This document shows positions 6,481 through 64,000 of a stretch of 64,000 nucleotides of DNA, in pieces. Position 1 is the first letter of the stretch. Each line of letters starts with the position of its first letter. The notes under the pieces were generated by a model. It saw only the letters and a list, made by a program, of their open reading frames with translations, was not told the origin of the DNA and searched no databases. Source of the stretch: Rhytidiadelphus loreus (Eukaryota > Streptophyta > Bryopsida > Hypnales > Hylocomiaceae); contig OX344765.1 of the NCBI GenBank assembly GCA_947034895.1, positions 23,069,001-23,133,000 of the forward strand, in the 5' to 3' direction. Made by a program: the position numbers and the translations under genes.

Positions 6481-8594
6481 AAATGGACATTCACTTACTG
6501 AGATGTCCGCCTTTTCCTAATTCCATAAAATCACGCCCATTTGAGCTGGGGAACGCCGAGCGGATTGAGAACTAGATCATACACAGGCAGAGACCCTGAC
6601 GCCCCACCCAACGGCAGCCTTGAAACCCGGTAGAGACCCGGAGGGTACCAGAGCGCCATATGCAGCCCCGAAGAAGAGCCCGACTGCTGAATTCCGAGCT
6701 TCAAGTTGCTTGCTTAGCTTTCTGACTGCGTGTCTGCCTGCCTGCAGCGAGCTATTGCCATGATATCGTGAAGCCCGCATTCAAAGCTTCCCGTACCTCC
6801 CACTAACTTAACTTACTCATGAGCCCTAGCCTCCAGCTGCATGCCTGCATGCCCTTGTCGCAGCAAACCCTGAACAGTCAGAGCAAACTACTGTAGCGTC
6901 AAACCTTCATTCCCTTGGAACTTAACCGTTGGCGTGTGACCAATAGCAGCTAGCTGCAGCATCATCCATTGATGGTACCTCATGAGTATGCTCTCATCAT
7001 TCGCTTCCAGCTTGTTAGGACATGTGATCATTCTCATTTTAATTTCCTGTTCTCTGCTTTGACCGATCGAGGGAGAGAGAGCCTTAAAGAAAATTTTGTT
7101 TTGAAATAGTTTGAATGTACGTTCTGGTGTCGTCACTGGATATACATTGGATGCTCTTGAGAAGAGAATAGAATGGAGGCGTTATTGAATGCGTGTCATT
7201 TGCGGTTTTTTAGGTTTGTGACGGAGTGGTTGGAAATTTGAAGGTTCCAGCTAGGAGGCGGAGCTTGTTGTTAGGGAGAGTAGAAATTTTTACTGGAGAG
7301 GGAGATTGAGGAGGATGCTGAGTTACCATGGAATGCATTACTTGCCGACACATGCGAAGAAGTACGCCTCACGTGTCGTACGAGGGAGTACTTGAGACGA
7401 GCCTCTGTTTTCTCGTGTTGGCCGTGTGGGGAGCTATGGCTAAGACTGATGCAAGTGTTCTTGGTTTCTGAAAGATCACGCTGCATGTGTTACTCTTCTT
7501 TCTAACGGAGTTCATTCAAGAGCGGGCATGTACGCACGTAGGGGAGGTTTCAGGGCATATTTTATTTAGAGACAATCGCTGAGAGTCTCTGTCGGGTGTC
7601 AGATTTCAAGTACTTTGAGGACCAAGTGCTTGCTCAGTTTCTTTGGTGTGAAATGGAGCGATCTACCTCGGACATGTCCGTGGCGCTGCACGCCGACTGT
7701 GTTTCTTGAAGAGTACAAAACATTGACCGGAGTACTGAAGAAACTCAACCGTTACAGTGCTAAACCCCCAAGCTGGCAGCGACTGTCATGAAGGTTCGCT
7801 GGATTTAGTAGTCTTCTTTGCAAAGCGCGACATTCATGCCGTGAGAGACAGGATTATCAGCGAGCTCTCGTATTTTTGAATTCTTGGAACGTTGCCGATC
7901 ACGTGCAAGAAGAATGCAGGTTCATTACTTACGGGAGCTACTGAGGTGCAAGTATATATACATCCAAACACAGGCGAAATTCAACCTGCATTGTTACATC
8001 TTCTAGGCTTGTAAGTTTCGATTGCTTGGGCCCTTTTATGCTGCTTGCTACATTGTCAACCCGGTCAAATTGAGGAGTTGCATTGATAGAGTTGCCATTG
8101 ATTTTATTTCCTCTTGTTAGTTCGGGCGATATCAAAATTATTACTCCGGTAATATCTTTTTCAAAGAATGCAATTTATCACTCCTACTAGTTTCGACGAT
8201 TAGTACTGTCTGATAGCGAGTTTGCAAGTTTTGCTGATTAGATTGCAGTCGATAGGAGAAACGTTGAAATGCAACATCCGAATCCGCGCTCTTGATTAGT
8301 ACCCTGGCGCTTCCTCCGAACTAATCAGGCACTTTGTCCACGTGCACTGTGAGTGAAACCTCATAGCACTAATAGCAATTGTAACTGATAGCACGACTCC
8401 AAGAATTGCGGGAGTCTTTATTAAATCTGCTCAATTTGTTGTAGGTGCAGATACAAGGGAGCTCGTTGGTGGTGTGTATGAAAACAGCGACAGATAATTG
8501 CTGAGGGAGTGCGAGGGGTTCGTGACTCAGCTCACTGGCCGGAAGGAACGGAATATATTGCTGGTCATTCGCTTGCTTTCTATATTGTCCAGTC
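6481..8594 (+). other. GC-richer leader/promoter region of the EMS1-like gene
   Basis: From about 6480 base composition switches sharply from AT-rich to near 50% GC and stays so into the receptor kinase gene. No protein family is recognisable on either strand. Short minus-strand frames overlapping here and in the first exon have no conserved features. The region probably holds promoter, 5' UTR and possibly a 5' UTR intron, but I cannot place a transcription start. Confidence 0.5.
7953..7960 (+). promoter_or_regulatory. Possible TATA box
   Basis: A TATATATA run followed by CATCC lies about 635 bp before the receptor kinase start codon, inside otherwise mixed-composition DNA. If used, it implies a 5' UTR of about 600 bp. 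Evidence is the motif only. Confidence 0.25.
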
Positions 8595-11500
8595 ATGAGT
8601 ATCTTCACCCTTGTTCTGCTTGGGTTGCTGCAAGTAGTAGCCTTGAATAATATTTTCCGTCCTGCTCTGGCCTTGAATTCTGAGGGCACAGCATTGTTGG
8701 CACTTAAGAACGGGCTCAAGTGGCAAGGTGCTGATCCTCTTTCGAATTGGCTTGCCGTGGACAAAGACCCATGTATGTGGACTGGAATTACTTGCAACAA
8801 TGTTTCCCAAGTCATGATGGTCGCTCTTCGCCATGGTCTTCAAGGACCGATTGTTCAGGAGCTTTTCACATTGGTTCAGTTGGAAGTGCTTGACCTCAGC
8901 AGTAATGGACTCTCTGGAGCTCTTCCCCCTCAGATTGGTAACTTGACCAGTCTTCAATACCTGGATTTGAGTGCGAACCAACTATCTGGAGCGATCCCGT
9001 TGGTTTTCTACAACCTTTCCAAGCTACTGAACGTTGATGTTAGCAACAACGCGTTTTCCGGGATGCTTCCCAGAGAGATTGGGCGATTGATTAATGTGCA
9101 GTCACTTGTCCTCAGTTTCAACTCCTTCTCAGGGTCTATGCCCGGAGAGATAGGCAGTCTTGTGAACCTGAAACGGCTGGACCTCAGTTTCAACTCTTTC
9201 AACGGGCCGATTCCTTCTCAGCTGGGTACATTGGTCAACATGGAGGATTTGCGTTTGAATGGCAATGGTCTGTCTGGCAAGCTACCCACACTTCATACAA
9301 TGTCCAGCCTCAGTATTATTGATGCAAGTGGCAACCAATTAACTGGAGATCTCTCTCCCTTGTTGGCCGCCATGAAGAGAGTCAAACGCTTGGACTTGAG
9401 CAACAACTCTCTTTCTGGGGAGATTCCTAACCAGCTGTGGACTTTGACATCCCTGGAGGAGCTGGTACTTGGAAGTAACGATGATTTGATAGGCACCATC
9501 CCTAAAGCGATCTTTAACCTTGTGAACTTGACCACACTGTCCCTCCGAGAATTGCAACTTTCAGGACCTATTCCAGAGGAAATCACTCAATGCACTAAAC
9601 TCGTGAACCTTGATCTTGGTGGTAATCTCTTCACGGGTACTATTCCTGCTTCCATAGGAAACCTGAAGAATCTGGTAACTTTAAATCTTCCAAGTACGCA
9701 TATTAATGGTTCTATCCCTTCTTCTCTTGGCCAGTGCGTCAACCTTCAGGTCAGTATGCTTACCAAGTCCATGATATGGCCATGGGAAACTAACTGGAAG
9801 CTTAAAGAATTTTTTTCTTGTTTGAGACAAATGTAGATGTCATAAAGGTGCACTGTTCTTGAAATCGAAGCTGTGAAATCGAAAGCAACTCAATTTCCTT
9901 GTTCTTTTTCCATCGCAATTATTATTTAACAAGAAACTGAAACAAGGCACAGCAGGAGTCGGTAGCGGTTCCGGCTGCACTGATGTATTTGTTGGTTTAA
10001 GTCATGCCAATTCTCAATAATTTAATCTTCCATTGCAAGAGCTGAAGGAGACCTCGAGTCATTGTCAATCTGGAGAGGTGAAGATTAACACTGCTCATTC
10101 ATGCAGGTACTGAACCTTGCATTCAACACCCTTGTGGGTCCGATTCCTGATGAGCTGGCCACCTTGACAAATTTAGTTTCCATTTCTCTCGACAAAAATG
10201 AGCTGACAGGACCAGTGCCATCATGGATTGGCAAGCTGCAAAATCTTTCGAGTCTTACCCTTTCCGTGAACCAGCTTAGTGGCGTCATTCCACCGGAGAT
10301 AGGGAACTGTTTGAGCCTCAGGACTTTGGGGCTTGAAGATAATCGGATCACCGGATCCATCCCACCTGAGATTTGCAACGCGGTTAATCTTGAAGTTATC
10401 ACTCTCGGGGGCAACATGCTGACGGGCAATATCATTGATACCTTTCGACGTTGTACAAGCCTCACACAGATAGACCTCACTTCCAACCGGTTGTCTGGTC
10501 CGCTTCCTTCGTACCTTGATAATCTTCCTGGATTGGTTATGTTTGCAATAGGGGCGAATCAATTTTCAGGAGCCATACCAGATTCTTTGTGGAGCTCAGG
10601 GACCTTGCTTGAACTGCAACTGGGGAGTAATAATCTTAATGGAGGTTTGTCACCATCTATCGGCAAGAGTTCATTATTGCAATATCTGGTCTTGGACAAT
10701 AACCAGTTTGAAGGCCCTATCCCTGAGGAGATCGGAAATCTGACGAATCTCTCTTTCTTTTCTGCACAAGGCAATAACTTCAGTGGGGCAATCCCGGCTG
10801 GGCTTTGCAACTGTGTGCAATTGACCACCCTGAATCTTGGAAACAATTCCCTCACAGGACGAATCCCCTCCCAGATAGGGGCACTCGTCAACCTAGAGTA
10901 CTTGGGACTTTCTCATAACCTTCTTACAGGGCAAATCCCCATTGAAATTTGCACTGATTTCCAGGTGGTCTCTATTCCTACTTCAAGTTTTCTGCAGCAT
11001 CACGGAAAGTTGGATCTCTCTTGGAACGATCTTAGCGGTCCGATTCCTCCTCAACTTGGTGACTGTGCGGTACTGGTTGACCTCATTCTGGCTGGAAACC
11101 ACTTCACAGGTTCTCTGCCCCGTGAACTCGCCAAGCTTTCAAATTTAACATCATTCGATGCTTCATGTAATAATTTGACTGGCACCATCCCAAATGAATT
11201 TGGCGAGTCACGTAAGCTTCAAGGTCTCAACCTGGCCTACAATCATCTGACGGGGACCATACCCTTGACGTTCGGATACATTAGCAGCCTGGTGAAGCTT
11301 AACCTTACAGGAAATCAATTGACAGGGTCGTTGTCCCCAGGTATTGGAAACCTGACTCAACTTTCTCACTTGGATGTCAGCAACAACCGCCTATTTGGTG
11401 AAGTTCCAAAATCCATGGCTAGTATGGTTTCCATGGTTGATTTGGACTTGGGGGGTAATCGGTTCAATGGAAGCATCAGCGGTGTCTTGTCCGCAAGCGT

Positions 11501-13037
11501 CATGTGGCATCAGTTTCAAGCTCTTAATGTGAGAAACAATCTATTCACCGGTGGTATCCCTTCTTCTGTCGGCAACTTCACTGAACTATCATTTCTGGAT
11601 CTTAGCAATAATCACTTCTCTGGCAGAATTCCTAGTGAATTCGGGAGCCTCAAGAAGCTTGAGCACGTTGACCTTTCGAACAATGACCTGCAAGGTGAAT
11701 TTCCTGCGAGTTTGTGCGACTTCAAGTCTCTTTTGTTCCTCAACATATCCAACAACAGGATTACTGGGCGCATTCCCAACAGTGGAATTTGCAAGAGACT
11801 CAATCCATCCTCAGTCCTTGGGAATGCAAGGCTTTGCGGGGAGGTAGTGAGAAGATGGTGTGCACCTACATCCGAAGGTGCTGGCAGAAATATCAGTAGG
11901 GGAGAGATCATGGGCATTGTAGTTGGATGCACAATTATCGTTCTGAGTTTCGCCTGTTTCATGTTGCGGTGTTGCCGGTCAAGACGACGGCGACGACGTA
12001 ATGGAGTACCAAGGGATGCTGAGAAGGTAAAGTTGAATATGATTTCAGATACTGATACTTGTACGACCATGAGCAAGTTCAAAGAGCCCCTGAGCATCAA
12101 CATTGCGATGTTTGAGAGGCCTTTGATGGCGCGTCTCACGTTGGCTGACATACTACATGCCACTAACAACTTTTGCAAAACGAAGATCATAGGAGATGGC
12201 GGGTTTGGTACCGTATACAAGGCAGTTCTATCTGATGGAAGAGTAGTGGCCATAAAGAAACTGGGAGCTTCTACCACCCAAGGAGACCGAGAGTTCTTGG
12301 CAGAGATGGAAACCTTGGGAAAAGTGAAGCATCAAAACCTGGTTCCTCTCTTAGGATACTGCTCTTTTGCTGAGGAAAAGTTGCTAGTATACGATTACAT
12401 GATGAATGGAAGTCTAGATATCTGGCTACGGAATAGAGCTGACGCACTGGAAGTTTTGGACTGGAGCAAACGCTTTAAGATTGCAATGGGGTCGGCAAGG
12501 GGAATTGCATTCCTGCATCATGGATTCATTCCTCATATTATTCACAGAGACATCAAAGCAAGCAACATATTGCTGGATGAGGATTTTGAGCCCAAGGTTG
12601 CGGATTTCGGACTGGCGAGATTGATCAGTGCTTACGAAACGCATGTGAGCACTGCTATTGCCGGTACCTTCGGATACATCCCCCCAGAATATGGGCACTG
12701 CTGGAGGGCCACAACTCGTGGTGATGTGTACAGTTATGGGGTGATCCTCTTGGAGCTTCTGACAGGCAAGGAGCCAACTGGCAAAGAATTTGATAATATT
12801 CAGGGCGGAAATCTCGTTGGGTGTGTAAGACAGATGATCAAGGAGGGCAATGGTCCCGAGGCTCTAGATCCTGTTTTGGCCAATGGGCCTTCGAAAAATG
12901 CCATGCTATCGGTGCTGCTTATCGCCAACATGTGTACAGCTGAGGATCCCGTTCGAAGACCGACAATGCAGCAGGTGGTACAGATGCTCAAGGATGTTGA
13001 ATCGAGGTCCCAGTTTTCAACCTCGAGCAATTTGTAA
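8595..13037 (+). CDS. EMS1: LRR receptor-like kinase, EMS1/EXS type
   Basis: Exons 8595-9749 and 10107-13037 join in phase 0 (CAG/GTCAGT donor, TTCATGCAG acceptor) to give 1361 residues. Residues 1-27 are a signal peptide, followed by an LRR N-cap with a Cys pair (CMWTGITC), roughly 30-35 plant-type LRRs (LxGxIPxxLGNLxxL) and, near 650-670, the short non-LRR island with a QHHGKLDLSWN junction typical of EMS1. A membrane helix at about 986-1006 precedes an Arg-rich stop-transfer. The kinase is intact: GDGGFG 1081-1086, Lys1102 in VAIKK, HRD Asp1200 in HRDIKASN, DFG 1218-1220 and an HVSTAIAGTFGYIPPEYG activation segment, very close to Arabidopsis EMS1 by memory. In angiosperms EMS1 perceives the TPD1 peptide with SERK co-receptors to specify tapetum; the role here is inferred. 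It is longer than EMS1 (about 1190) by extra LRRs. The start is the first in-frame ATG before the signal peptide. Confidence 0.93.
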
Positions 13038-16000: not shown

Positions 16001-16474
16001 CTTTGGGGGTTAAGTGAACATTTGAACAAAGTTTAGGTAGTTGTCTAAAGTAAATATTTACTTATCACTTATGATTTTATGTGTCAAATTTGGATGTCCA
16101 TATATTTTTTTCTTAATGATAATTTTCGTTTTAATGTTTAATCTTGCAAGGCCTCGTAGCTAAAAAATAGCTTATGAATGATTTTAGACTTGCAAACTAT
16201 GATGGAGAACTATAATTATTGTTCCATCTTCTTTTTGAGAATTTTTCATTGTGTCTATACAACATTGTACTGAAAAATCCCTCTCTTAGTGGCATTATTA
16301 ATTTCTCTACAAATTAAGATGTTTACAACATTGATACATAATTTCTAATTTCTTGCTTTTGATTTCAGCTTTAGGCATCAAAATTTAAATCTCTCTTGAC
16401 TTTGAATTTAGCTAAACTAATTTATCCTATTCACAAGGTTAGGGTGCAAAACAGATCTCACTACAAATTAAATT
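13038..16474. other. 3' flank of the kinase gene, then AT-rich DNA
   Basis: The first 1.1 kb after the kinase stop keeps the kinase gene's composition. It has an AATAAT poly-A-like signal near 13137 and probably holds the 3' UTR plus downstream DNA. From about 14100 the sequence becomes strongly AT-rich. A TTAACCCCTAA motif near 15150 resembles the terminal repeats of elements elsewhere in the window, but no partner end was found. No gene is seen. Confidence 0.6.
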
Positions 16475-17182
16475 CATTTCAATAATACTTCAATCTACCC
16501 TAATTTAAATATATGAATTCCAATCATGTAACTTTGATAACTTAGTGTCACACACACACACACTGATGGAATACACCAACGTCCTAAAATGAAGCTTACC
16601 AATTGCACCCTTTTTCTTTTTTTCAATTTGAAGATTCCAATAGACATTTTGACATAGGATGGTACAAAACTTTCATTTCCCCTACAATGTTCTTCACACA
16701 AAAGATGTTCTTAAGTTTTATTTCAATAATACTTCAATCTACCCTAATTTAAAAATATGAATTCCAATAGTGTAACTTTGATAAATTAGTGTCTCACACA
16801 TACACACACAATAATGGGATATGCCAATGTTCTAAAATGAAGCTTACCAATTGCACCCTTTTTCTTCTTCTTCAATTTGAAGATCCCAATGCATAAGCTA
16901 ACATTTTGACACACAATAATGGGATATGCCAATGTTCTAAAATGAAGCTTACCAATTGCACCCTTTTTCTTCTTCTTCAATTTGAAGATCCCAATGCATA
17001 AGCTAACATTTTGACACACAATAATGGGATATGCCAATGTTCTAAAATGAAGCTTACCAATTGCACCCTTTTTCTTCTTCTTCAATTTGAAGATCCCAAT
17101 GCATAAGCTAACATTTTGACATAGGACGATACAAAACTCTCATTTCTCCTACAATATTCTTCACGCAAAAGATGTTTTCAAG
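16475..17182 (-). repeat. Nested tandem repeat, 245-bp unit with 105-bp inner expansion
   Basis: A unit starting TTTCAATAATACTTCAATC (about 16475) and ending near AAAGATGTTCTTAAG recurs from about 16720 to 17182. The first copy has one inner block containing AAAATGAAGCTTACCAATTG and CTTTTTC. In the second copy that block is present three times with period exactly 105 bp (starting 16811, 16916 and 17021), nearly identical. Both copies carry a short (CA)n tract. Since 105 is a multiple of three, an open frame of repeated 35-residue blocks appears on the minus strand; I take that as a by-product. Confidence 0.92.
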
Positions 17183-17195
17183 TTTATCTTAACCC

Positions 17196-21949: not shown

Positions 21950-22582
21950 TTAACCCCTAAATGCCCGAGGCACCCAAGTCTGGTGTTTGCAAAACTTTGA
22001 AGTTAAAAATATCCCAACCCAAGTTGCTATTTTTTTGTAGTTTTTGTTTTTGGAAAGTTCTTCTTGAAGTCTAGTTTTAGCATCAAAAATCCAATCTTGA
22101 AAATAAATGATAGTGATTTTTCAATTTAAGATTTTGTGCAAGGGTACCCATTGCAATCTTGGCTTCTGGTAGTGTTGAGAGCTCTTGGAAATGAGCCTCA
22201 AATACACTAGATCTTGGAGAAAAAATCACATTCAAAATTCATTAAAAAAAATTATGAAGTAGATATTGGGAACTCAAGCCATAAATTGATGGGGTTATAC
22301 ATGTCAGGCCCTTTTAACCTCATATTTTTTTGGTCACCAACTTTTTAGATTTGACTTGTGAAAAGAGGATTGGAAGACTTCACATCACTTTTGCAATTTT
22401 ACACCCTCATGGTTAAACATTATAATCTTTCATCCATAAGTGTTATTGTTGTGTTTTCTTTTCCTAAGAGATCTCTAACATGTGTAGTTTGAATTTCTAT
22501 GGTTACAATTCCAAATAAATTAATACAACTTATCAAAATGTTGGTATTTTGTTAAAACAGGCCTTGGGCTTTTAGGGATTAA
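21950..22582 (+). mobile_element. 633-bp element with TTAACCCCTAAA ends
   Basis: The left end TTAACCCCTAAATGCCCGAG is matched by a right end whose reverse complement is TTAATCCCTAAAAGCCCAAG. The interior segment of about 22275-22560 recurs inverted at about 55868-56160 (shared GTTATACATGTxAGGCCC, GGTCACCAACTTTTTAGATT and TTAAACATTATAATCTTTC). It has no open frame of note. TA at each edge again suggests a TA target site. Confidence 0.82.
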
Positions 22583-55300: not shown

Positions 55301-57782
55301 CTTTTCATAGGTATTTCAATGTGATCATCTTGAGTTCAAGTCACATTGTAATTTCTCCTTGCCATAGTGATCATTGTCTATTTAAGATTGGTTGTGAAAA
55401 ATGGGTGGTGAACTTTAATGGATAGTTTTAGTTGTTCATACCTTATTGAAATTGCCACCTATGCCTAATACTTATGAATGTAATGAAATAGATTTGGTTA
55501 CATAGTTACAATTGTTAAAGTTTGTAATATTATCTAATAAGACAACATGATTAAACGACCTCATATTAATATAAGTTTTTATATGTTGAGGTAGCCTATA
55601 TTTAACACTAGATTCACCTTGAGTGGACATCCTTGAAGTATGAAATGTCTAAAATGTTAGAGGTTCTTTTTTAAAACTTGTGGTTTTGAGTTATAGAATT
55701 GTTCATTTAGGACCATGTTTTTTATGTGTTAGAAAATGAAATGTGTTGCAATTAGGTCCTTCATTAACTACAGAGGTACTTAAAGAAAATGCTAAATAAA
55801 GCATAATAGGAAAAAAAAATAATGGATATTATATGTTTTGAGCTTCTTAGAATTTTTTCTAAAATAAACAAAATGCCAACATTTTGTTAAGTTTTATTAA
55901 TTTTTTTGAATTATGATCGTGCAAATTCAAACTAAATATGTTAGAGATCTTGTAAAAAAAGAAAACACAACAATATCACTTTGGAGTGAAAGATTATAAT
56001 GTTTGACCATGGGGTTTTAAAACTACAAAAGTGATGTGAAGTCTTTCAATCTTTTTTTCACAAGTCAAATCTAAAAAGTTGGTGACCAAAAATATATGAG
56101 GTTAAAGGGCCTAACATGTATAATCCCCATGAATTTATAACTTTTCAAAATCTACTCTATAATTTGGAGTCATTTGGCCACATATATTGTAATATATTGT
56201 AAAATTATAATGTTCTAGTGTTGAAAAGGGATGCTGAAATTTTCCTAGCAACATGTTTGGGGTGAAATTTGATTTCTAAACCTACACAAATGAAAAAACA
56301 TTAAGCTATAAAGTGCTTTAGAACTAGCATGTAAATACATTGTTGAAAAAAAATATCATTCAATTGGTTGATTGTGTCTATAAAATGGCTTTGAAATGTC
56401 AAAAAATAGCCAAGAAAGTTACAAAAAACACACATATAAAGTTGAACCTCCTACTAAAATGCTTTATAGTCATTCAAATGAGATTAGTATGCGCAACTTT
56501 CTCAAAATTATTTTTAGTAGAAATAGACTTGGTATGAAGAAGTAACAAGTTGTTGAAGTTCATTGTAATCCAAAAATGTTTAGATTGACACAAAACTTTT
56601 ACCACAATAACTAGACTTCAAGGGGAACATATTCCAGCAAATTTTATTATAAAAGAACATTATATGAAGGAGATACAAGCCCCCGAAGTTGTACCCATCA
56701 AAATGTAGCTCGGTGAACTCAAATTAAAACTATGAATTTTGAATGGCTTCCCAAAAAATTGTACATCTTGAATTGATTTGAAAATTTTACCACACTAGCT
56801 AGAAAAGAGATAAAATTTTCAATACAAGTTTGATTGAATTTGGAAATTGGATCCAAAAGTTACATCGCTTCAAATTGGACTTTTAGACTATGTGAGGACA
56901 CTTTTGAATCCTTGGGACACTTAGAGGTTAAAGTGTTAATAAAGTACTTTTGTAAAGAGTCTACTATAAATGCCATAAATGCCATAAATGTCATTTTGTG
57001 GACGATGAAATGACAATGACAAAGTATGTGTTCTTTTGAGAATGCTATTGCATAAAAGTTCATATTTAACTTTAAAAAAAAGAAAAAGGAAGGAATCTAT
57101 GTTGCCTACTTTTATTATAGTGCAAAAAGACAACCTTAGGAATAGCCCAACATCATTGATGCACATTCAAAACAATTAGAAGTATGTTACAATGATTAAC
57201 AAGGGTTACTAGGTTCAAAACAACACACTCCTTCCATCCCATAATACTAATCCTTAATTGTAGTAATAGGAGTATTAAAGATTTGGCAATAAATTTTTCA
57301 AGCATGTTGCAATCTAATGTGTTTAAAGTCAATGTGCAATGCATCTTCTCAAATACAATACAAGTAAACATGGTTGTTAATTACAATCAAGGAAAGATAA
57401 AAAAAAAGAAATAGCAAATTGCAATAGATACAAAGTGCCATGCATAAGCATTAGAACAAAATTCGGGTCTCTGGATGGCCGGTACTTTTTGCTTGGAAAT
57501 TAATTTTTTGCTATTTGGAAAAGGGGTAATTACAATTATATAGTCGATTCTAAGCGTTTCCATCAAACCTGTGCACCAATGAGCCCTGTGCGGTACATAT
57601 CCAGTTGTCACCGAAGCACTCAAGCTCATCCTACTTGGCAATGGCCGTGCACCTTCACTTTGTACAAACAGTGGCCCTGTTGGCAACCTAGCACTTGAAG
57701 CAATGAAGACAACACATTTTTTAATATTCTTTGACTATTATTTTACTATAGTCGATGAGTACCATTTGGAAAAAAGTTTTAG
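55301..57782. other. AT-rich DNA left of the transposon relic
   Basis: Mostly AT-rich and without recognisable genes; contains the inverted copy at 55868-56935. A less AT-rich block at about 57560-57700 borders the coiled-coil frame of the transposon relic and may belong to it, but I found no terminal inverted repeat. Confidence 0.5.
55868..56935 (-). repeat. Inverted, enlarged copy of the 21950-22582 element
   Basis: Bases 55868-56160 match 22275-22560 in reverse complement. The right border ends CACTTAGAGGTTAAAG, a degraded version of the TTTAACCCCTAAAT end of the other copy. At about 1.07 kb this copy is longer than the 633-bp one, so it either keeps more of the parent element or carries an insertion. 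No terminal repeat was found on the left side. Confidence 0.65.
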
Positions 57783-58911
57783 GGTAGTCCGAGTTTAGGG
57801 GTTGAGATTTGGAAGCCAGTATTTCCAATTATTGTACTTGTGGTGTACAATCTAGTTGAGGAGCGTGGGAACTTGGGGGAGAATGTCAATGTGGAGATGC
57901 TCATGCGACTCCACATCGTACAGGCCATTAGAATTGACTCCCGCCAAATGAGTTGGCTCATCCATGTTCCCATAGTTGTTGACAAGTAGTAACCTTGTAG
58001 GAATTTAGATGTGGTTTTAGGCTGGGAAAGATCTTGTTCGAAGCGATGGCACTTGAAGATGTTACGAACAAGGGCAACAATACTTCGTATACAGCATCTG
58101 TAGCTCTTCATAGTAGATTTGTGCCTATAGTGAAGAAGGGGGTTCGAATTGATCAACAACTCTCTCGCTCAGAATTTCCATCCTTGAGAGAATCTGGAGC
58201 CACGAATATAGATTTATGGTTGGATGGCAATCTGTACCCAACAGATCCGGTGACTAGGAAGCCACCACAGTTCCAAACATTGAAGAGTTACTTAGAATTT
58301 GTTTGTCACGGTGATTCAGGCCTCTTAGGATACACCAAACACTTGATTAGCACCAGCGATGCAACGAGTGCCTTAAAACAAGCACATGCTGATTGGTTTA
58401 GAAAAACAGTGTGCTTGCAGAATTCAATCGCAATGCTGAAGCGCGACCTGGACGTTGCTAACAACCAAGAGGCGGTGCGTTCACAGGAACTGCTTGCAGA
58501 TAGCCACATAGAGATCAATCTATTGAAGACCAAATGTGACGCGTTGAGGTCTAGATGTGCATGTCTCCAACGAGACTTGGAGAAGAACGAGGAGGCTTAT
58601 AGCAACAACATTCGAACAGCACAACAGCAAGGACGTGAAGCTGCGGATGAAGAGTTGCAGCGAGTACAATATGATCTCAAAGAAGCAAGAAAGTCGGTGT
58701 TGCAGTTTCAGAGGAAAATGGCACGACTAGTGGCACTACTCCACTAGGTGCATCGAAAGGTCTCTCTGAACTAGCAAAGACTGGTGGCGCCGCAAGAGCA
58801 CGCATAGCGAAGATTCGGAGCTTGTTGCAACAGTCTGCCGTTCACTCTATCAACGCGGAAAACAAGGTTTCGAAAGGGAGGAAGCGGCTGTGTGGCGACA
58901 AGGATTTATAA
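57783..58911 (+). pseudogene. Coiled-coil N-terminal part of transposase gene (or separate ORF)
   Basis: A frame open from the TTTTAG acceptor-like site before 57783 encodes SLGVEIWKPVFPIIVLVV and RLHIVQAIRIDSRQMSW, ending at a TAG just after IVVDK. It resumes from 58021 with LGKILFEAMALEDV and continues to 58747. The span from about 58380 is predicted coiled coil (LKRDLDVANNQE, LLKTKCDALRSRCACLQRDL). A further block in another frame (GASKGLSELAKTGGAARARI .. KGRKRLCGDKDL) runs to a TAA at 58909-58911 in the same frame as the transposase core. The breaks at 57986-58020 and 58690-58747 can be frameshift damage, or a tiny 35-nt GT-AG intron for the first. The function of this domain is unknown to me; coiled coils in transposases often multimerise. 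Confidence 0.65.
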
Positions 58912-61480
58912 GACGGGACAGGTCAGGGTTTAGGAGTTTATTTGTCTCAAGGAGAGACATTGGCCTTGGTGTCAAATCCAAGGAGCAGTTTCGCGGCTAC
59001 CAGAATGACCAACTACTATTTCGATAAAATTGGGATGGAGTTGGGAACAGAAGCAATACTAGCAGCATGTGACATGACGGGAGTGTCTCAGAGAGGGTAT
59101 GGCGAAATCTACAAATCAATCAAAGGGCACGTGCAGCTTGTGGATAAGCGATTGAAGCCTACATTTCTACCAAATCCGCACAAGGTATTACTCACTCCAT
59201 TCCAAAAGTCACACCTACATCGTGTTGGAAACATGCTACGGTTTATCTATCTATAGGATATGCATGCGGGTTAGGGAGTTAAGGGTTTGGGTTCTCATGC
59301 ACGGTGCAATATCTTTAGATGGTGCTGCAATTCTGTGCATATTGTTGGTTAGGGTTTAGGGTTGGGTTCTCTGAAACAATGCAATATGTTTATCAGGTCA
59401 CTCTGTTGCGAACAAGAATGAATGGAAAGCTGAAGGATCTTGTGGGTGAATATTACCACATCGACAGCACATTGGAGATTGTGGCGCCAGTTGCAGTGCC
59501 CAATGCCAAAGGAAGGAAGAAGAAGAAAGAGATAACCCGAGTTGTTTTGTCATCAAAGAACTCTTTGTTTGTTGACATTGAAGTTGTACAGAGAACTATG
59601 GTAAAGCTATACGGTTTCACCCCCGAAGGTCAGTACTTCATTATGTTTCCAACTTCTATGAGAGGATGATGGACGTGTTATCTGCTCTTATTCACTGGTC
59701 TACTTCATGTCCTATACTAAAACGTGCAATGCTGGAAACGGGTGCAGAAGTTGGAGACAAGCCGTTGGTTTTCGTGTTGAAGATGGACGAAGCAGAGATT
59801 TTGCATGGGAGGAAGTTCGAAAGGGTTAGTTTGACCCTTATGAATCGTGCTTTGGACACCAGTATACAGAAGACTGATGACAGGTATTTTTCGGTTCAAT
59901 CTGAAACCAAAATATGGCCCATTGCATGCTTTGAGGTTGCGAAGGAGTCAAATGAAGTCCTCCAGTGGGTGTTCCAACAAACGCAATTCCCGGAACTTAT
60001 CAAAGCACAAGATGGGGGCCAGTTGCTATGTGTTGAAGGTGTTGGAAACTTCAAAGTAGAGTGGCATTTGTCTGCAGATATGAAGACAATCAAATGTCTT
60101 TACGGTCTTAAACATGGTGCCAATGCCCTTCATTCCTGCATCTATTGTAACCAACAACAGGCCAAATCAGTGGTGGGAACAGTGGCAAGTGCTACGTCGG
60201 AGGCTAGGAGAAGAAAACATAGATGGCATGGAGGGCTATTCGTTGGTAACGTCCTCCCTAAACCACTCTCCACTGATGGTGAACCGCGTTGGAAACCTAT
60301 TCTGCCGATATCACTTGAAAGGGTACATATTTGCACATTGCATGCCTTAACGAGGATGATGGAGAAGATTCTTCACCTGCACTTCATGTTCATCTGGAAT
60401 ATGGAGAATGAAGCACGTCAAGAAGTTGCCATACAAAATATGGAGAAGACGTTGTCAGCAGCAAGGCTTCACGGTGGCAATGTACGCATAATGAAAGACA
60501 CAACGCTTAGTGGTGTTTCCAACAGTATCCCCATCAAGCCCTCCCTTAGTGGCGTTACTACAACTAAGATGTTTCAACCATCGACTTGGTTAGGGCAAGA
60601 TCGTGTATGGAAGGACGTCTTGCGTTCAGAAAACAACACCTTGGATCAAGGTACACAATATTTGGATAGGGTGGAAATGTGGCAAGCGCTAGAAACAGTA
60701 TTGCCATATTTGGTGGGCCTTTCTTTGGATCAAGAGCAAATCAACACTTTTAAGGGAAAAATTGAGAGTTGGGGGCGCCTTTATGTGAAGTGCTTTGGAG
60801 AAGAACATGTCACTTATTATATGGTAAGTTTAGAGGAACCTGTCGCCAACATCCCTCATATTGCTACCAAAACGACTAACAGCCAATTAGGCTCGGCCAA
60901 TTACCGTGTTCAGGGTGTATTGGATTTGGATGTTGTTTCGATGTGTGAATAATATATTTTTCTGGGGTCTTCGCAGCATAACCTAGTGCGGCATGGTCCT
61001 TGGTATGTGGAAACATACGGGAGCCTAGCTGTTTGGAACAACCAAGGTATGGAGAAATCACATCATGCAGCTAAGTCTGCGAATCAGCACCACACTCAAC
61101 ATGGCGGCACTAAAGATAGAACAAGTGCCATCGTTCAGCAATACCAACATTGGTACAGAAACATACAACACAGGTTTGCAAAGCAAGTACGAGTGCAGGA
61201 CGTATGCAACCAAGGGTCAACAAGTGAAGCTAACATGGTAGCATCGACGCTCAAGAAGAAGATAGCCTATGACACTTCAAATGCGATGGATGCAGCTAGG
61301 AGGTGGAGGGAAGATAGAGTACGAGTCGGCAGAGCTTGGGTGAGAGAAGTTAGACAAGAGGGTGTGGAAGACAGTGTCATTGATGTGGCAAACATTGACA
61401 TTGGGAGAATTGATGGTAGGACGACTGAAGGCAACGATGAGAGATCTGAAGAACAACGACCTAATTTTGAGACTATTTAA
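58912..61480 (+). pseudogene. RNase-H-fold (RAG1/KDZ-like) transposase core, frameshifted
   Basis: Blocks 58912-59184, 59397-60823 and 60977-61480 join at good GT-AG sites (HK/VTLLRTRM; TYYM/HNLVRHGPWY). The core has a possible first acidic residue in FVLKMDEAEIL, a CxxC zinc pair in ALHSCIYCNQ after LYGLKHGAN, a second site in SLERVHICTLHALTRMMEKI, and a third in SLAVWNNQGMEKSHHAAKS. By my alignment these match the order D, CxxC, DxLH, GxE of RAG1 (ESD, CTLCD, IDALHCD, EGNESGN), with Glu replacing the second Asp. A one-base loss near 59631 shifts the frame between GFTPEG and SVLHYVSNFYERMMDV. An Arg/Lys-rich block (KGRKKKKE) precedes the core. I infer a decayed DNA transposase; the family is not one I can name. 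Confidence 0.7.
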
Positions 61481-61939
61481 GGTCATGGCTAGCCTGGTAG
61501 ACGTACTTCAGATCAGCATATAAGTTGAGAAGCTATGTATGAGCAACCTAGAACAAGCTACAGATGTGGCTTTCATAGTAAATTTGAAATATTATTTAAT
61601 TGAAGACCTCACATGTTCCCAACTGTACATGAACAAAAATTGGAACCCAGTCATTAGTAACTACATGTGCATGTTGAAAATGAGTATGAAAGTCAATTTC
61701 TATATGTGAATTACGATATAACTAGTCTATTTGCACACATTTATCCAATTATGCCTATTGCACAGTTCAAGACCTTGTTGAAGGGGTCCTGTTGATGGAA
61801 ATCCCCCCGTCCTCTCCAATTGAAACATTGAATTCGCATGTACGTGCTAGCACAGGGGTGGAGGGGCTCTGAGATGGGGCACTTCGGGAGGTTGAAGCGA
61901 CATCTAGACTGGGGCGGAAGTTGGCAGCATTTGGTGAAT
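61481..61939. other. Spacer between the two convergent transposon genes
   Basis: The 3' ends of the plus-strand transposase and minus-strand RING gene meet here. It contains CCCCCGTCCTCTCCAATT at about 61803-61820, which recurs at about 63686-63703. No gene is recognised. Confidence 0.5.
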
Positions 61940-63609
61940 TCACAGATATAGCAAAACACAGTAGCCCTGGAGATGAGCTCGGCTTCCTAGGTTTAGGGTC
62001 AAGTCCACGTTCTGCAGGTCCGGCAATGACATTGCTGGAAACGTCCCTTCACTACCCGGCAAAGTGCTATTCTCTCCCATCTGCACATCTTTACTGCCAT
62101 TGGGGACTGGTCCTTCCTGAACTGACTTATTGGCTGCAAGACATTTATTGAATGTTTAGGATTTAAAGTAATGAATAGCAAAGGAAATTAACGCCCTGTT
62201 TTTATTCAAATGAACTCACCTAAGTTTGTAGTAGCGTCCTCCTCCAACCTGGTTGTCATGTTGGAAACGTCCTCCTTCATTCGGGTTGTAAGAGGATACC
62301 CAAACTGCGCCATCCAAGCACCACTGAACTCTTCGTCGCAGCGTGGGCAATTGTGTTTATGCTCAGCCATCAACGTGGCAATGCACATTGGGTGAAATTG
62401 ACAACCGCAAGAAGCAATGATCACAGCACGAGCTACAAAACCGTGTTTCGCACAGCCCGCACAAAGCTTGGATTCTGTTCGCCACATGGCAGGGATAGAC
62501 TTGCCTGTTGGGTACACAAATGGAGCCCGTGGACGCAACACCAAAGAGTTCTTCTTAAGGCGCTGTAATTTCTCCTCGGCTTCCTGAACAACCGCATTGG
62601 AGTACTCAACAGTCCTGCGCAACAAACGCAACTGGTCAACTTCAATGGATCGTATTCTTTCTTCTGCCTTTTCTTGTGTATCCGCCATTGTGATCAGTTT
62701 CTCCAACATATCTCGTCCCTCCACCAACTTCAAACTTGACAACGCAGAGCCGGCTTTGCGTTTGAACAAAAATTCCGCTTCCATTTTCATGTACCGCGCA
62801 TGCAATTCTTCTTGTTCTTTCACGCAGGTATGAAGTGCCTCCTTTGAGTCCGCCAATGCCTGCAAGAGGGTATCGAGGCCACTTGATGCTTGGTCACGAA
62901 GCTGGACCAATTCGCGCAACTCTGATTCCGCTCTTGCTACTGTTGAAGAAACTTTGAGGGTCTTTTTCTTGGAGATTTTGTTGCCACCGGTAGTAGATGT
63001 GTAACTGTTGACAATGGCGCACAAGGTGGCAAGTTGCTCTCTGATTGCCACAAGACCCAATCTATGGCGATTGTGCTTCCTCTGATCCATTCGAGTGTTG
63101 CGCCTCTTGATTGCCTTTGCCACCCAGTCAATCTCAACTTTGTGCACAAACGTAGCAAAGCAAGCATGTAAGAACCTCAAAGAAAATGCATTGTTGCACG
63201 ACTGCCCTCCATAAACGAGCCTATGCTGTTCACAGAACTGTGCTTTCTGGTCGTTGTCAACATACAAGTTAATTGGAAAGCGATATGGATCTGCCCGTGT
63301 CTTCCAGTTTAGCAAGATCTCATCGTCCGTAACTACTATCATCTGCAAGACCTGGTCCACTTGAACGCCGCGGGGGCATAGGCCAACAACAACGGTGAAG
63401 AAACGTGCGTCGTATACACCATCACGACCTGCTAGAACTGGGGCAACAGAGAGTAGCTGCTGCTTGAGTTCTTCAGGAATTCCATCCAACGGAATTGGCT
63501 CCTCGAATTCATCAAAAGCGCAACCTTGTCCGCCCAAACTAACCGGGCTAAATAGAGGTACCTCGACCAAATCGGCTGGGCAGTCTCCAGTACTCTCGGA
63601 GGACGTTCC
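61940..63609 (-). CDS. Coiled-coil protein with C4HC3 RING-like finger
   Basis: The main exon is open from 63609 down to 62220. A donor at ACTTAG/GTGAGT joins it in frame to a second exon, 62133-61940, adding about 64 residues (NKSVQEGPVPNGSKD..). The total is about 530 residues; no ATG opens the frame, so the first exon is missing or lies further right. Counted from 63570, a globular part (about 1-165) is followed by a charged coiled coil (about 180-335) and a zinc finger with Cys370, Cys373, Cys388, Cys390, His393, Cys396, Cys408 and Cys411. The spacing is that of a RING-H2, but the usual first His is Cys390, giving C4HC3 order. RING fingers act mostly as ubiquitin E3 ligases; the target is unknown. 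The frame is long and undamaged, unlike the neighbouring transposase, and the genes are convergent. Confidence 0.7.
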
Positions 63610-64000
63610 TCAATCCTGCAAGTTCTTCCTGTTGGCAGCGCAAGAACGAGCGGGGTATCTCCCCATGTTGTGGATTCGCAACAAACCCCCGTCCTCTCCA
63701 ATTTTGCAGCAAGTGGTAAGCCCAAACTAGAAGAAGAAGTCCGAGCAATGGAGCGAGAATGGTTTGCACAAGTTGCCTCAGATTGAGTTTCTTGCACAAA
63801 GGTATGGTGATCATGAAGTTGAGGCCAACAATGAATGAATCACATGGGCCGCCTCAAATCACATTTACTGGCATCACATCATTTTTAGTCTTGAACTGAG
63901 GATTCATTTATCTCAGGCCCAATTTCTCTCATGCTAGCAACGTGTCATTGTAATCATCAGTTTCAAATCAACACAGTGCCCTTAACAACATCAATACAGT
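63610..64000. other. Right flank, possible 5' part of the RING gene
   Basis: The minus-strand RING frame meets a TGA at 63610-63612. A plus-strand frame open from 63556 to a TGA at 63784 encodes TPVLSNFAASGKPKLEEE and VRAMEREWFAQVASD, which looks protein-like, but the strand is ambiguous here. After 63790 composition falls and nothing is recognised. Confidence 0.35.

Follow-up and report, generated by a model that had tools for sequence, protein, structure and literature searches.

A probable RAG1/Transib-like DNA transposon of a plant genome, decayed and facing a coiled-coil/RING gene

Introduction

Members of the CMCT clade of transposases (CACTA, Chapaev, Transib and RAG1) have C(2)C and H(3-4)H motifs in common, according to the account of the clade in Kojima 2025 (PMC12730594), which also places Lanisha there, with the same motifs and a similarity to EnSpm, and cites Maumus, McDaniel and Carey (2020, Repbase Reports) for it. 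Among relatives of RAG1, the enzyme that rearranges human antibody genes, Tao 2022 (PMC9435367) lists 39 plant proteins as potentially Transib-like and describes a RAGL transposon from a pelagophyte alga, the RING fingers of RAG1 and Chapaev are discussed by Kapitonov and Koonin 2015 (PMC4411706), and the RAG1L-RAG2L genes are described as convergent by Martin 2020 (PMC7204232). Here, we analyse a locus of Rhytidiadelphus loreus (positions 57,783 to 63,609 of a 64,000-nucleotide stretch of contig OX344765.1, hereafter the window) in which a plus-strand transposase gene faces a minus-strand coiled-coil/RING gene.

The locus is probably a decayed plant DNA transposon, with a transposase that falls, within the CMCT clade, beside RAG1 and Transib, and a RING gene that most likely travels with it. 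The enzyme class is already known, and a plant element that has a RING gene opposite its transposase would be a new variant at most; in the open-access literature searched, no report came up of a plant RAG1-like transposase with a RING gene opposite it, although the wider literature may differ.

The transposase gene and its core

The plus-strand gene comprises the following parts:

58046..58747, +, N-terminal exon (ATG at 58046; this frame stops at 58745-58747)
58735..58911, +, decayed stretch continuing the gene in another frame, up to an in-frame TAA at 58909-58911
58912..59184, +, exon of the pre-core domain (40% identity to homologue P0017 over 111 aa)
59397..59628, +, exon of the pre-core domain (48% identity to P0017 over 90 aa)
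59748..60823, +, exon with the RNase H core (spliced frame, structural model, RAG1/Transib fold matches)
59786-59788, +, D1, in the core exon
60077-60079, +, D2, in the core exon
60137-60148, +, CxxC, in the core exon
60323-60343, +, VHICTLH, in the core exon
60977..61480, +, last exon, with H-x4-H and the proposed catalytic Glu
60977-60994, +, H-x4-H, in the last exon
61052-61054, +, proposed catalytic Glu, in GMEKSHH of the last exon

The four exons from 58912 to 61480 splice to one frame of 694 codons plus a stop, across introns of 212, 119 and 153 bp that are all of the GT-AG type. The core has homologues in 63 clusters (best E value 7e-203) and the last exon in 44, both retrieved by a search seeded with short exact words and, therefore, biased toward conserved stretches. 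When conservation is counted over all these clusters, wherever a sequence reaches the position, D1 is kept in 47/47 and D2 in 62/62, the CxxC cysteines in 62/62 and 60/62, and the core histidines in 63/63 each, while in the last exon the histidines of H-x4-H are kept in 15/15 and 22/22 and the proposed catalytic E in all 44. Both the C(2)C and the H(3-4)H of the CMCT clade are present between the second D and the E, with a RAG1-type H-x4-H placed 20 residues ahead of the latter.

According to an AlphaFold2 (AF2) model of the core and the fold searches carried out with it, the DDE/D triad belongs to a predicted RNase H fold, the E being placed by sequence rather than by the model. The structural comparison with RAG1/Transib, the conserved catalytic and zinc residues and the H4H...E block support an RNase H-fold transposase of RAG1/Transib type. 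The preliminary description of the locus had read an ordered signature of D, CxxC, [DE]xxH and GxE, in which what had been taken for [DE]xxH is C-T-L-H inside V-H-I-C-T-L-H. Of the solved structures listed, those of RAG1/Transib are closest in fold; no CACTA or KDZ structure is among the matches listed, so that the fold comparison lacks a CACTA reference.

The product of the N-terminal exon has a conserved head (NIDLWLDGNLYP...CHGDSGLLGY) followed by a coiled-coil-like stretch, and homologue P0058 matches it at 58184-58345 with 48% identity over 54 aa. In the first of the three introns, two copies of one stretch, 77% similar, lie at 59269-59392, and one of them bears a plant-telomere-like TTAGGGTTTAGGG motif.

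RAG1 or CACTA affinity

When the family profile was compared with mouse RAG1, a single block emerged unprompted, in which EEHVTYYM-HNLVRHGPWYVETYGSLAVWNNQGME is aligned with RAG1 929-962 over 34 gapless columns, the last of which is E962 (a numbering fixed by the E962Q chain). A tryptophan stands six residues ahead of the E in both proteins. The score of the block was reached by none of 100 residue shuffles, and with the profile trimmed post hoc to the block the E value is 4.4e-5 and the probability 69%, again with 0/100 shuffles.

Several results limit this comparison. The hhalign probability of the untrimmed block is only 25%; the segment from D1 to CxxC and the helical segment score no better against RAG1 than 14 and 22 of 100 shuffles, respectively; the shuffle control cannot separate RAG1 from CACTA, and the RAG1 comparison has no CACTA control. 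Against the match, PDB-wide profile searches with either the core or the last exon did not retrieve RAG1, to which the sequence similarity of the transposase is too low for such a search. In the pairwise profile comparison, the match is confined to the H4H-E block.

A divergent transposase of the CACTA/EnSpm or Plavaka type, rather than a RAG1/Transib-like one, is an alternative, with the C(2)C and H(3-4)H motifs common to the CMCT families in the account of Kojima 2025 (PMC12730594) and the missing CACTA structure among the listed fold matches both speaking for it. However, no Pfam transposase model is matched at E <= 1 by the 21 core and 31 last-exon members scanned, including the CACTA/EnSpm and KDZ models of Pfam-A, and the H-x4-H with the E 20 residues on and the W six before it follows RAG1. 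On balance, we consider this alternative unlikely.

The facing coiled-coil/RING gene

The minus-strand gene (61940-63666) is convergent with the transposase gene (58046-61480), and is made up as follows:

62220..63666, -, main exon (ATG at 63666; in-frame TGA at 63610-63612)
62338..62463, -, C4HC3 RING-like finger, C-x2-C-x14-C-x-C-x2-H-x2-C-x11-C-x2-C
61940..62133, -, predicted last exon, its splice deduced from GGTGAGT in the window and GE in both homologues
61481..61939, gap of 459 bp between the convergent stops, given the splice at GGTGAGT

The intron at 62134-62219 and the stop ending at 61940 are predictions from sequence; at the protein level, both homologues read GE at the proposed splice, as a shared donor would give. 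With this splice, the spacing of about 460 bp proposed earlier for the convergent genes is confirmed.

Two homologue clusters were found (E values of 1.7e-179 and 2.7e-126). The protein has a conserved N-terminal part, long predicted helices and the C-terminal finger, whose pattern is kept in all three sequences. A profile built from the three matches the RBBP6 RING in the PDB at an E value of 7e-4, in agreement with the RING assignment of the preliminary description, and the Pfam RING models match the protein below their cut-offs. Pfam kelch models matched neither the protein of this locus (E <= 1) nor P0065 and P0066 (E <= 0.01). The structural model is helical, with no strands, a predicted local distance difference test (pLDDT) score below 50 for residues 1-219 and a mean of 49.5; the fold search with it gave helical proteins (best E value of 0.021), matches that are not interpreted because of this low mean.

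We infer that the two genes form one mobile unit. That the RING gene is instead a host or otherwise unrelated gene merely adjoining a single-gene transposon is a less probable, yet serious, alternative: the transposase core has 63 clusters of homologues and the RING protein two, and no linked pair was seen elsewhere, both RING homologues lying on contigs of 2.7-2.8 kb that are too short to hold one. Against it stand the small number of homologues for a host RING gene, the nonsense codon and the close convergent layout.

Decay and the ends of the element

Both genes look broken at the sequence level, and the copy dead. The plus-strand gene shifts frame near 58735, where the matches of P0058 flank the shift (58184-58345 and 58738-59124, the latter at 21% identity), although an unrecognised intron is possible there instead; the TAA at 58909-58911 is spanned by the alignments of P0058 (58738-59124) and P0017 (58858-59187, 40%). 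In the minus-strand gene, a side-by-side reading of the translations gives Arg in P0065 at the place of the TGA at 63610-63612. The right edge formerly set at 63609 reflects this TGA; the gene itself begins at 63666.

A search for terminal inverted repeats by local alignment, covering parts of the window, gave nothing above shuffled sequences, and the right end of the element is probably outside the window. In the region 57000-64000, 29 direct (20 of them listed) and 14 inverted repeat pairs were found, many of them in short imperfect families, which we take as chance save for one exact 18-bp direct repeat around the minus-strand gene. This repeat, CCCCCGTCCTCTCCAATT, lies at 61804-61821, beyond the predicted stop, and at 63686-63703, upstream of the ATG, with no third copy in the window at up to four mismatches; it might serve in binding or recombination.

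The failure of the search for termini would also fit a domesticated host gene that has lost its mobility, a very improbable reading in view of the inactivating changes in both genes and of the large and divergent family. A viral or prokaryotic origin was rejected: the core, RING and last-exon profiles have no relatives in IMG/VR, a Foldseek comparison with viral structures gave nothing under an E value of 0.001, and the core and last-exon profiles have no relatives in the prokaryote genome collection.

Comparison with described systems

With RAG1-RAG2 and RAGL (ProtoRAG/TransibSU), the element shares an RNase H core bearing D, D, CxxC, a long helical zinc domain, H-x4-H and E, as well as, at this one locus, a convergent second gene with a zinc finger at its end. 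The partner there carries kelch and PHD domains, whereas here it combines a coiled coil with a RING, and the host, unlike that of RAGL, looks like a plant. The finger is also spaced differently (Cx2Cx14Cx1Cx2Hx2Cx11Cx2C) from the invertebrate RAG2L PHD, given as Cx4-7Cx14-16Cx2-4Cx4Hx2Cx11-18Cx2C in Martin 2020 (PMC7204232). With neither kelch nor the PHD spacing, the minus-strand gene is RAG2-like in position only.

Transib is set apart by description, its canonical transposase having no identifiable domain beyond the core in the account of Kapitonov and Koonin 2015 (PMC4411706), whereas the present gene has a coiled-coil N-terminus and a facing gene. Chapaev belongs to the Transib superfamily, and two of its subgroups have a RING finger (same source); its Chapa and RING domains are fused to the transposase, in contrast with the separate convergent gene found here. 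CACTA/EnSpm resembles the element in C(2)C and H(3-4)H (PMC12730594) and differs from it in the absence of a Pfam transposase match in the 21 and 31 members of the present family.

Surroundings and the name of the family

The neighbouring genes, a leucine-rich repeat (LRR) receptor kinase and a plastocyanin-like protein, fit a plant. The kinase sequence (8526-13034) is divided between a long open stretch at 8526-9833 and another at 10089-13034. To the left of the element, 55867-56165 and 22249-22553 are AT-rich inverted copies of about 300 bp with 86% identity, possibly an interspersed repeat, and overlapping local repeats occupy 16473-17185 (e.g. 213 bp at 100% identity with a 105-bp shift).

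The element had been assigned to an unnamed family, which is doubtful since Lanisha, a cut-and-paste superfamily proposed in 2020, may be the same family; only the RAG1 likeness and the RING partner would then be added. Lanisha agrees in its CMCT placement and its C(2)C and H(3-4)H motifs, and is described as similar to EnSpm (PMC12730594, in its description of the clade). The plant-like genes of the window (LRR kinase, plastocyanin-like domain) point the same way. Two of its three authors work on the moss Ceratodon purpureus. The likeness is, however, one of descriptions and not of sequences, and we would give the identity about an even chance; as it bears on the name only, it does not conflict with a RAG1/Transib-like element accompanied by a RING gene.

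Proposed mechanism and implications

By analogy with the RAG1/Transib family, the transposase would dimerise and then bind the element ends, where D1, D2 and the final E would nick the DNA and form hairpins, so that the element would be excised and then joined to a new site; the CxxC and H-x4-H would hold zinc, which would link the lobe of the active site with the helical domain. The facing gene, which most likely moves with the transposase, would encode an accessory protein with a coiled coil and a RING, probably acting as ubiquitin ligase or scaffold, with the transposase or host silencing factors as its presumed target.

More speculatively, and as an unlikely reading, the locus might be a non-animal counterpart of RAG1L-RAG2L, in which a dedicated convergent partner supplies, as a gene of its own, the RING that is fused in vertebrate RAG1 and in some Chapaevs, the paired design having arisen in plants independently of, or before, the kelch-PHD RAG2. 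Should the two genes move as one unit, they would offer a plant counterpart of the transposon from which adaptive immunity arose, and the recurrence of facing zinc-finger accessory genes in RAG1-type transposons would become testable.
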